Of a DNA stretch of 42,792 bases, positions 37,941 to 42,444 are shown piece after piece. Every line of letters begins with the position of its first letter. The stretch's first letter is position 1. This DNA comes from Hydrogenimonas thermophila. Lineage in GTDB: Bacteria > Campylobacterota > Campylobacteria > Campylobacterales > Hydrogenimonadaceae. The stretch lies in NCBI RefSeq assembly GCF_900115615.1, contig NZ_FOXB01000018.1, positions 1 to 42,792 on the forward strand, written 5' to 3'. The notes under the pieces were generated by a model. The model worked only from the letters and a program-made list of their open reading frames with translations, made no database searches and had not been told where the DNA came from. Both the position numbers and the translations under genes were made by a program.

Positions 37941-38089
37941 GAATTACTCCTTTCAATACTTACCTGATTTTGAGCGGTGGGATGATAAAGGTAAAAAATG
38001 AATTTTTGATGAAAACTTATAATTTTTAGAGGTTACATTTATATAAAAACTAAAGTGAGTCTATACGAGTAAGAAGATTTGGTTTTGTG

Positions 38090-38098
38090 TGGTATAAT
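38090..38098 (+). promoter_or_regulatory. extended -10 promoter of structured RNA 1
   Basis: TGGTATAAT, preceded by TTTGGTTTTGTG. The 14-nt block TTTGGTTTTGTGTG (38078-38091) and the TATAAT recur exactly before RNA 2. The expected start lies 7-8 nt downstream, at the first base of stem P1. Confidence 0.65.
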
Positions 38099-38105
38099 TT
38101 TCGTA

Positions 38106-38194
38106 AAGAGGTGAGAGTGTGGAAATAATCCGTCGTGCCACCGGCGAGGGCTTTAAGTCGTCGATATGGAAGGGTGACGGTCTTCCCACCTCTT
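38106..38194 (+). ncRNA. structured small RNA, copy 1
   Basis: No known family recognised. The plus strand folds as: P1 38106-38113/38187-38194 (8 bp); P2 38119-38122/38138-38141 (4 bp); P4 38143-38147/38158-38162; P5 38168-38172/38182-38186. The P2 loop CCGTC (38130-38134) is complementary to GACGG (38176-38180) in the P5 loop, forming a kissing loop or pseudoknot. P5 abuts P1. The linker between P4 and P5 is GATAT. The same architecture with different bases recurs at 38418-38520. It is convergent with a decayed nuclease gene. It could instead be a DNA-level repeat, but the compensatory changes argue for RNA. Confidence 0.6.
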
Positions 38195-38335
38195 ATTTAA
38201 ACTTCCACTCTCCATAAAATAACTGAAAAAAGGGATTTTTTAAATCAGAAGCATTTATGTAGCCTGCTGTCTTGATAAGCGTTAATTCATCCCCTTTATA
38301 TTTAAACTTTGTATCTATAACTGTTTTATATCCAT
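38193..38335 (-). pseudogene. decayed PBECR-type nuclease gene (copy 1)
   Basis: The minus strand encodes IDTKFKYKGDELTLIKTAG and then YINASDLKNPFF, closely matching the C-terminus of the intact nuclease at 38495-38953, up to a TAA at 38193-38195. An ATG with the same first codons (MDIK) and similar upstream sequence as the intact gene is at 38333-38335, but it is out of frame with the conserved part, and about 300 bp of the middle is missing. This is a deletion remnant of a tandem duplicate. Confidence 0.8.
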
Positions 38336-38404
38336 AAATAGCTCTTTTTTAATTACAATTTTAACTAATTCATTTGTAAAAAATTGGAAAAGTTTGGTTT
38401 TGTG

Positions 38405-38413
38405 TGCTATAAT
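38405..38413 (+). promoter_or_regulatory. extended -10 promoter of structured RNA 2
   Basis: TGCTATAAT with the same upstream TTTGGTTTTGTGTG block (38393-38406) as RNA 1. A TTGGAA at 38384-38389 gives a possible -35 with an 18-bp spacer. The expected start is at the base of P1. Confidence 0.65.
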
Positions 38414-38417
38414 CGGT

Positions 38418-38520
38418 TATATGGAGATGTGAAAGGCGGAAAGGGTTTATCCCACCGGTATTGCCGCCGATGGTTGCGACCAGTATGAGAGGGATTACCG
38501 GCTCTCCACATCTCCATATA
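38418..38520 (+). ncRNA. structured small RNA, copy 2
   Basis: Folds as: P1 38418-38431/38507-38520 (14 bp, perfect); P2 38435-38439/38464-38468 (GGCGG/CCGCC); P3 38443-38445/38451-38453 inside the P2 loop; P4 38471-38474/38479-38482; P5 38487-38491/38502-38506. The P2-loop CCGGTA (38455-38460) is the exact complement of TACCGG (38496-38501) in the P5 loop. The linker GTAT precedes P5, and P5 abuts P1. Every element except P3 has a counterpart in copy 1 with different sequence. The 3' 26 nt are antisense to the last codons of the intact nuclease gene. Confidence 0.62.
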
Positions 38521-38953
38521 TTACTTCATAACTTTTTAAATTTGAATTTTCTATATAGCCTGCTGTTTTTATAAGCGTTATTGACTCTTTCTTTCTTTTA
38601 TATTTTGTATCTATTACAAGTTTGATAATTTTAGAGCAACTACTTTTATGCTTACAGTATAATAAATTTAATTTATCTTTTTCATTATCAAAAAAGACTG
38701 CACTTGGGTTTTTTAAAATATTAGGTATTCTTAAAATATCCTCTTCACTAAGCCCTGCTCCTCTTTGCTTTTTACTCTCTCTTGCAAGATGAGATAAACC
38801 TTTATGGTTTATATAAATCTCTTTGGTATGAATCGGCACGCCTTTTATATTTAAAAACTCAATCACCTTTTCATCTAATTCACCTACAATAACTTTATTT
38901 CTTGTAAGCTTCTTTCTTGCTTTTATCTCATCAAGCATAGATTTTATATCCAT
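38495..38953 (-). CDS. putative PBECR-type (barnase/EndoU/RelE-like) nuclease
   Basis: A 152-residue protein. Residues about 40-140 match the pattern of phage-associated barnase-EndoU-colicin-RelE-like nuclease domains: KEIYINHKGLSHLARESK, then an LRIPNILKNPSAVFFD segment, and a C-terminal IDTKYKR...ITLIKTAGYI strand pair. The N-terminus is Lys-rich. There is no signal peptide. No strong Shine-Dalgarno precedes the ATG, so expression may be low. It is divergent from pyrB and convergent with structured RNA 2, overlapping it by 26 nt. The family is assigned by eye; a toxin role is inference. Confidence 0.6.
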   Translation of the reverse strand: MDIKSMLDEIKARKKLTRNKVIVGELDEKVIEFLNIKGVPIHTKEIYINHKGLSHLARESKKQRGAGLSEEDILRIPNILKNPSAVFFDNEKDKLNLLYCKHKSSCSKIIKLVIDTKYKRKKESITLIKTAGYIENSNLKSYEVIYGDVESR

Positions 38954-39006
38954 AAATAGATCTTTTTTACTTACAATTTTACCTAACTTTTTGTTAACTT
39001 CTTTCC

Positions 39007-39015
39007 TGATATAAT
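39007..39015 (+). promoter_or_regulatory. extended -10 promoter of pyrB
   Basis: TGATATAAT lies 41 bp before the pyrB ATG. No -35 at proper spacing is visible. Confidence 0.55.
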
Positions 39016-39055
39016 GTCACCAGAAAATAGCGTACCGATTCAAAAAAGGAGAAAC

Positions 39056-41459: not shown

Positions 41460-42444
41460 CGTGAGTTCGGGATAAGAAAAGAATAAAAATTGCTTGAGCC
41501 TTCCTCAGAAGAACACCAAATACCAAGAGGAAGGCAATATGATTTTAACAAAACTTTTTGTAGAAATCGATGATTTTTATAAATCATTTGAGCCAGAGTA
41601 TCATAAAAGCCTATTGAGTGAAGGTAAAGTAAAAAGAAGACGGTCAACAACCCTAAGTAAGAGTGAGATAATGACAATAGTGGTATTTTTCCATATGTCT
41701 AAATTTAGAACATTTAAGGACTATTATATTAGATATGTTCAAAAGAGTCTTAAATCAGCCTTTCCAGCTCTTGTTTCATATCAAAGGTTTGTAGAGTTAA
41801 TGCCAAGAGTAATGGTTCCACTTTTTGCATTTATGCAACAAAGACGATTGGGACCTATAACTGGTATCTCTTTTATAGATTCAACAACTATCAAAGTATG
41901 TCATATAAAAAGAGAAAAACAAAACAGAGTATTTGCAGGATTAGCAGCTAAAGGGCGTACAACAATGGGATGGTTTTATGGTTTCAAACTTCATCTAGTC
42001 ATAAATGAAAAAGGAGAAATACTCTCTTTCTTTTTTACTCCAGGCAATAGTAGTGATCAAGATGAAAAAGTAATTGATCATCTATGAAAAAATCTTTCTG
42101 GTAAGTTATTTGGTGATAAAGGATATATCTCTCAAAAGCTATTTGAAAAACTTTGGCAGCAAGGAATCCAACTGATTACAAAAATTAGAAAAAATATGAA
42201 AAATAAATTAATACCCTTAATAGATAAACTACTACTTCGTAAAAGAGCTTTGATTGAGTCAATTAACGACCAACTTAAAAATGTTGCTATGCTAGAGCAT
42301 ACAAGACATAGAAGTCCTATTAATGCTATGATTAACTGGATTAGTGCATTAATTGCTTATACCTATCAGCCAAAAAAACCTTCTATTCGATTAGATGAAT
42401 CGGAAAGGAATCTATTGACGGTGGCAGCTTAAGCCGAATTCACG
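41460..42444 (+). mobile_element. IS982-family insertion sequence (copy B), full length
   Basis: A 985-bp element with 17-bp imperfect terminal repeats (CGTGAGTTCGGGATAAG left; CGTGAATTCGGCTTAAG right, read inward; 14 of 17 match). It is flanked by the perfect 8-bp direct repeat TTTAATAA (41452-41459 and 42445-42452). It carries one transposase gene filling most of its length. The clean target duplication shows it is the most recent insertion in this cluster. Confidence 0.9.
41539..42432 (+). pseudogene. IS982-family transposase with in-frame TGA
   Basis: The ATG at 41539, after GAGGAAGG, opens a 297-codon frame interrupted by TGA at 42085-42087. Before it: SFIDSTTIKVCHIKREKQ (first catalytic Asp), RTTMGWFYGFKLHLVIN and FFTPGNSSDQDEKVIDHL. 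After it, in the same frame: KNLSGKLFGDKGYIS (second Asp), LITKIRKNMKN, the KRALIESINDQLKN Glu helix, and HTRHRSPINAM. All DDE elements are retained, so the stop is a single point lesion or a sequencing error. Confidence 0.88.

Follow-up and report, generated by a model that had tools for sequence, protein, structure and literature searches.

The two tandem structured RNAs of the window (the whole analysed stretch of 42,792 nt, contig NZ_FOXB01000018.1 of Hydrogenimonas thermophila) are probably antidote, or immunity, RNAs for a predicted endoribonuclease of the PBECR3 type, a domain usually found as the C-terminal toxin part of the MuF protein of Mu-like phages; from comparative sequence analysis the probability of this reading is put at about 0.78. 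The window holds two RNA and nuclease modules, in which one toxin is dead and both RNAs are intact. An immunity role is favored because the RNAs outlive their toxins, accumulate beside them, follow toxin lineage and vanish together with the catalytic histidine of the nuclease. The elements of the locus are the following.

38078–38098, plus strand: promoter block of RNA copy 1, with TATAAT at 38093–38098; direct repeat D3, 95% identical to 38393–38413.
38106–38194, plus strand: RNA copy 1 (type A1), identified by covariation and by model R3 (97.6 bits; a seed sequence of that model). Helices: P1 38106–38113/38187–38194, P2 38119–38122/38138–38141, P4 38142–38146/38159–38163, P5 38168–38172/38182–38186; kissing helix between the P2 and P5 loops, CCGTC 38130–38134 with GACGG 38176–38180.
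38195–38379, minus strand: remnant of a second PBECR3 nuclease gene, with 3′ and 5′ ends kept, the middle deleted, and out of frame.
38393–38413, plus strand: promoter block of RNA copy 2, with TATAAT at 38408–38413; direct repeat D3.
38424–38514, plus strand, with the closing stem reaching out to 38418–38520: RNA copy 2 (type A2), identified by covariation and by model R3 (66.7 bits; a seed sequence). Helices: P1 38418–38431/38507–38520, P2 38435–38439/38464–38468, P4 38471–38474/38479–38482, P5 38487–38491/38502–38506; kissing helix, CCGGTA 38455–38460 with TACCGG 38496–38501.
38495–38953, minus strand: PBECR3 nuclease of 152 aa (Pfam PF18812, E 5.6e-11, 42.8 bits, cut-off 30).

The original prediction had described two tandem RNAs of one layout, and both copies do segment in this way, each as one single fold of ∼90 nt with P1, P2, P4 and P5, with P5 abutting P1 directly and a kissing helix between the loops of P2 and P5. 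Copy 2 differs from copy 1 in an extra small hairpin (P3) within P2; the arms of its P1 are a perfect 14-bp inverted repeat, and its 3′ part overlaps the last few codons of the nuclease gene. The proposal that each RNA has its own promoter agrees with the TATAAT before each copy (in copy 1 the −10 box stands 7 nt upstream of the RNA core), with the identity of the two promoter blocks at 20 of 21 positions, and with a −10 box (at least five of six matches) found 3–14 nt ahead of 30 of the 35 homologous RNAs, against a background of ∼10 per cent at random positions. No terminator-like site was found within 37950–39050. Elsewhere in the window, ∼2.5 kb away from the RNA and nuclease locus, is a DDE transposase open reading frame (41494–42087, DDE_Tnp_1_3).

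It is the comparative evidence, rather than folding energy, that makes a strong case for RNA structure here. Single-sequence folding yields modest z-scores of minimum free energy on the plus strand (−1.8 and −3.5), and the minus strand also folds, for copy 2 better than the plus strand; folding of this kind leaves the strand unsettled, and the plus strand was chosen from the promoters, the T-loop letters of relatives and covariation. The homologues compared are L003, L015, L004 and L020, of type A1 like copy 1, and L019 and L005, of type A2 like copy 2. In five type A1 sequences pairing holds in 99.2 per cent of pair cells, and both sides have changed at 11 pairs (19 cells), a result matched by none of 500 shuffles. 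Across eight A1 and A2 sequences, P1, P2 and the pseudoknot are paired in 128 of 128 cells, and 10 pairs (29 cells) are altered on both sides (0 of 500 shuffles), although shuffles ignore relatedness; yet six of eight P1 pairs vary doubly inside A1 alone. Two of the five pseudoknot pairs covary in the combined set, and none of the slid registers of either alignment comes near the observed pairing or covariation. Compensatory changes in independent homologues thus bear out both the predicted covarying pseudoknot, with helices kept despite divergence, and the claim of selection on an RNA. The suggestion that the RNAs belong to no known family is in keeping with Rfam, which gave no match to either window RNA at the gathering threshold and chance matches only at E ≤ 10; neither were they recognized as tRNA, by an Rfam RF00005 score or an ARAGORN call. 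The structure, promoter and family parts of the original prediction therefore stood, with no refuting outcome encountered in the homologue and Rfam searches, but it was incomplete, giving no function and missing the nuclease reading frame, the deleted second nuclease and the tRNA-like relatives.

The nuclease gene is convergent with copy 2, and its 3′ end runs into that RNA. Its product belongs to PBECR3 by a PF18812 score above the gathering cut-off and by the conserved His55, which is present in at least 90 per cent of relatives and, together with Thr130, is a candidate catalytic residue. The AlphaFold2 model (pLDDT 91) had no significant PDB match in a Foldseek search, and the RNase assignment therefore rests on Pfam and PBECR membership and on conserved residues. 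This nuclease is a solo copy that has no MuF domain. The remnant of the second gene lies between both RNAs and borders copy 1. It contains the repeats D1 and D2 (38237–38321 and 38324–38379), which match the end and start of the intact nuclease gene with the middle missing; it has 56 per cent identity by tblastn over residues 110–148 and is nearest to two toxins that have A1 RNAs. The locus looks acquired because the nuclease is absent from sampled genus mates; a tblastn search with the window nuclease gave no match in plasmids and phages, scanning viral sequence with L008 also yielded nothing, and a profile of 11 sequences contained no stretch of sufficient conservation for scanning.

Elsewhere in the Campylobacterota, as in viral contigs, the nuclease domain either forms the C-terminal end of MuF or is a piece detached from it. 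MuF is a minor head protein of Mu-like phages (PHROG 220 is annotated 'minor head protein and DNA pilot'), and the architecture of a MuF polymorphic toxin, an N-terminal MuF with a C-terminal toxin domain, is present in the relatives L004, L006, L019 and L080. Fusions of PBECR to MuF have been predicted to be RNases (PMC5512222; PMC5576092). Every Campylobacterota locus examined in which the gene is intact carries a structured RNA behind a predicted promoter, on the opposite strand at the nuclease stop codon, and such a convergent RNA occurs at this place in phages from other phyla as well; some of these RNAs are of class A, like the window copies, and most are tRNA-like. In Pasteurella phage AFS-2018a and Pseudomonas phage B3 a tRNA-like RNA lies in the ∼125-nt gap from muF to the next head gene. 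In phages U11 and Mu_3F6 the histidine is lost, the gap after muF is absent and there is no RNA; U11 is 45 per cent identical to B3 in the PBECR3-type domain, and these two phages without the RNA make a close comparison with the two that bear it, B3 and the Pasteurella phage. The Mu domain had already been called inactive by Iyer et al. (PMC5512222). The downstream immunity protein of MuF systems was not found in PBECR3 systems, where the convergent RNA fills that slot. A dRNA-seq dataset exists for C. jejuni RM1221, which carries the Mu-like prophage CMLP1/CJIE1 (PMC3656092).

The association of RNA and histidine was assessed on MuF genes fetched through a DNA pattern for PPNGWGC, so that loci were not chosen by RNA. 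Among PBECR3-type MuF genes of the first 80 loci, the RNA was present in 12 of 12 with a catalytic-type histidine (which in a few genes is displaced or accompanied by a longer insert) and in none of the eight without it; covariance model R1, a stem descriptor or inspection by eye served to call the RNAs, which left the scoring only partly blind. In 40 held-out loci scored with R1 alone, the counts were five of five with the histidine and zero of three without. Overall, the RNA accompanies 17 of 17 domains with an intact catalytic histidine versus 0 of 11 in which the histidine is lost; Fisher p values (4.7e-8 for all, 6e-5 for R1 alone and 5e-4 without seed sequences) are guides only, as sampled phages share ancestry. 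Model R1, built from four RNAs, had 14 matches in 792 kb, namely the four seeds, eight more at the exact place at the end of muF, one real tRNA-Met and one chance match.

The tRNA-like RNAs have an acceptor stem of 7–10 bp, a D-arm with a GG loop and a T-arm of ∼5 bp with a TTCGANT or TGCAANT loop. Most relatives thus share acceptor, D and T arms and the TTCGANT loop with tRNA (RF00005), but the anticodon arm is replaced, in the clearest cases by a hairpin with a 3–4-nt loop, and no CCA tail was found on them. ARAGORN accepts two relatives as tRNA (L145 and L146) and the Rfam tRNA model one (L012); the window RNAs score nothing as RF00005 and have no ARAGORN call with a 7-nt anticodon loop. 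Class-A topology parallels that of tRNA, with P1 as acceptor, P2 as D-arm, P4 as anticodon arm and P5 as the T-arm that abuts P1, and with a Watson–Crick kissing helix in place of the contact between D-loop and T-loop. Model R1 aligns both window copies in the correct register, though it scores them low (5.7 and 4.2 bits), and across three gamma-proteobacterial-type phage loci model R3 matches best to the RNA of B3, precisely where it would be expected (14.1 bits). Because of the shared position and topology and these weak scores of R1 and R3, a common origin of the class-A and tRNA-like RNAs is likely.

The RNAs are also found apart from active toxins and in excess of them. Copy 1 of the window is intact beside a deleted toxin; in L019 a second RNA, of type A1, adjoins all that is left of a lost toxin, its final codons (FGDWKF-stop), and the order of active pair, dead tail and older RNA is common to the window and L019. 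Genome G041 has an A1 RNA with a compensated pseudoknot (L206:1501–1587, minus strand) and no credible PBECR3 gene. RNA arrays stand beside one toxin, with two RNAs in L058 and three in L165. In the toxin tree, toxins with A1 RNAs separate from toxins with A2 RNAs (support 0.95), such that RNA type tracks toxin lineage. A weak PBECR3 match in G041 was rejected because the protein sits among CRISPR-Csm-like genes, and a match in G052 (25.6 bits) inside a chemotaxis-receptor-like gene was put down to chance. The orphan A1 RNA of G041 (L206) adjoins AT-rich GTTAAAAGTTAAAAG repeats, and the array of L165 (3975–4285, minus strand) consists of three tandem tRNA-like RNAs next to a single MuF nuclease.

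The orphan copy, the tandem arrays and the RNA beside a dead toxin point to immunity; these features, taken with the match of RNA type to toxin lineage, the order shared with L019 and the loss of the RNA with the histidine, would not all be expected of an activator, an antisense RNA or a head RNA. The strict pairing with active nucleases would be equally expected if the RNA guided or activated the nuclease or served as its cofactor; such a role is nevertheless very improbable, given that RNAs persist at sites lacking the toxin or retaining only a deleted copy and that additional RNAs occur beside one toxin, which fits immunity instead. An antisense regulator in the manner of type I systems, which would lower toxin synthesis and for which the fold would be merely stabilizing, is very improbable: all of the RNAs run convergently to the gene, and copy 2 extends into its final codons, but that overlap covers just a few codons, conservation lies in a tRNA-like fold whose tertiary contact covaries, and the orphan RNAs and arrays face no gene.

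It might instead be supposed that a functional replacement tRNA refills a pool cut by a nuclease of the phage itself or of the host, in the way that phage tRNAs counter host anticodon nucleases (PMC10264068, PMC11555353), since most relatives are tRNA-like and ARAGORN accepts two of them. The short loops of the anticodon arm (3–4 nt in the clearest cases), the missing CCA tail, the overlong acceptor stems and the class-A RNAs that are not recognized as tRNA leave only a slim chance for this explanation, the anticodon arm and the 3′ end being the grounds for rejecting a working tRNA. The slimmest chance is given to a pRNA-like role in the structure of the phage head or in packaging; the RNA sits within the head gene cluster of Mu-like phages, but it is missing from Mu-like phages with a dead PBECR domain, and class-A RNAs occur without any head gene nearby in the window, L206 and L015.

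If the RNAs are antidotes, the predicted nuclease may cleave a tRNA-shaped substrate, and the RNA would resemble tRNA at the elbow while having a tight hairpin, or another fold, in place of the anticodon loop, thereby occupying the nuclease as an uncleavable substrate mimic. Substrate mimicry is suggested because the tRNA-shaped RNA adjoins a nuclease whose fold class also contains toxins that cut tRNA. The antidote would protect the lysogen or the phage-producing cell, and the virion could carry the nuclease into unprotected cells. The window locus would then be a chromosomal leftover, with an intact A2 nuclease and RNA pair and a displaced A1 pair of which the toxin is dead and the RNA intact. 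In the orphan arrays of CDI and Rhs systems, a displaced dead toxin tail and an intact immunity gene likewise stand behind the active pair; this is the displaced order of the window and L019, but immunity in CDI and Rhs is a protein.

The resemblance to type III toxin–antitoxin systems (ToxIN, CptIN, TenpIN) lies in the combination of an endoribonuclease with a structured, pseudoknotted RNA, here the proposed inhibitor, and in the matching of RNA and toxin types. However, the type III antitoxin is an RNA of short tandem repeats, upstream in one operon with a terminator between (PMC5086642), whereas here a single ∼90-nt unit is convergent at the toxin 3′ end and has its own −10 box. Type III toxins are of the ToxN, CptN or TenpN kind, and the toxin here is PBECR3 by Pfam with no significant match to a solved structure; moreover, most relatives of the window RNAs are tRNA mimics. 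In its logic the proposed system is closest to type III, and if direct binding of RNA and toxin were shown some would class it as a new branch of type III.

MuF polymorphic toxins have the same head protein with a variable C-terminal toxin, but the immunity described for them is protein-only (PMC5576092, PMC12226406) and, as demonstrated with Apk2 toxins, is encoded downstream (PMC12226406), in contrast to the opposite-strand RNA here. Phage tRNAs that evade anticodon nucleases are alike in that a phage-borne, tRNA-shaped RNA opposes a tRNA-cutting enzyme; they are functional and act against host nucleases, whereas the RNAs here have no normal anticodon loop or CCA and pair with the nuclease of the phage itself (PMC10264068, PMC11555353). 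tRNA-dependent lysogeny (mBio 2024, PMC10865867) was set aside as a precedent, since functional tRNAs there replace a disrupted host tRNA and do not confer toxin immunity. No RNA immunity for polymorphic toxins was found in the open-access literature searched, with subscription papers and preprints mostly outside this coverage.

Immunity to polymorphic toxins is generally taken to rest on proteins, and no target is known for MuF-PBECR domains. If every active nuclease does have a substrate-mimic RNA at its side, this would be a second kind of phage immunity; the tRNA shape of the RNA would hint at the target of the nuclease, and the structured RNAs within the gap after muF would be explained. 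Mimics are sometimes called by tRNA finders and may inflate phage tRNA counts. There is also fair reason to think that temperate phages guard virion-delivered RNase toxins with structured immunity RNAs, not proteins, as a broad and undescribed class, in which PBECR3 would be countered by tRNA mimics or class-A RNAs, and other MuF toxins (PBECR2 and more) by other convergent folds.

Further RNAs were seen in Mu-like contigs and at other MuF genes. PBECR2-type MuF genes (L102, L154, L109, L167, L195, L095) seemingly also have a convergent structured RNA, of another fold, on the opposite strand within the ∼110 nt after muF. It has hairpins, whose loops may pair (GCCATTC with GAATGGC in L102 and L154), and ends like a terminator. 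A MuF toxin type that is weakly PBECR3-like (L092, L127, L133, L159, L173, L184) has a recurrent convergent RNA with a core of CGTGACACGGTGATATTCTC...CGGCCGT. MuF loci that look to be of Bacteroidota phages (L160, L164, L174, L179, L110, L084) carry sequence resembling a structured RNA on the strand facing the 3′ terminus of muF, preceded by promoters of the TAnnTTTG type. sRNA-Xcc1 (Rfam RF02221) occurs in two Mu-like contigs (L146:6549–6637 and L161:4636–4723, both minus strand), ∼1.6–1.8 kb past muF, and C4 antisense RNA (RF01695) in one Mu-like phage contig (L120:2464–2549, plus strand).
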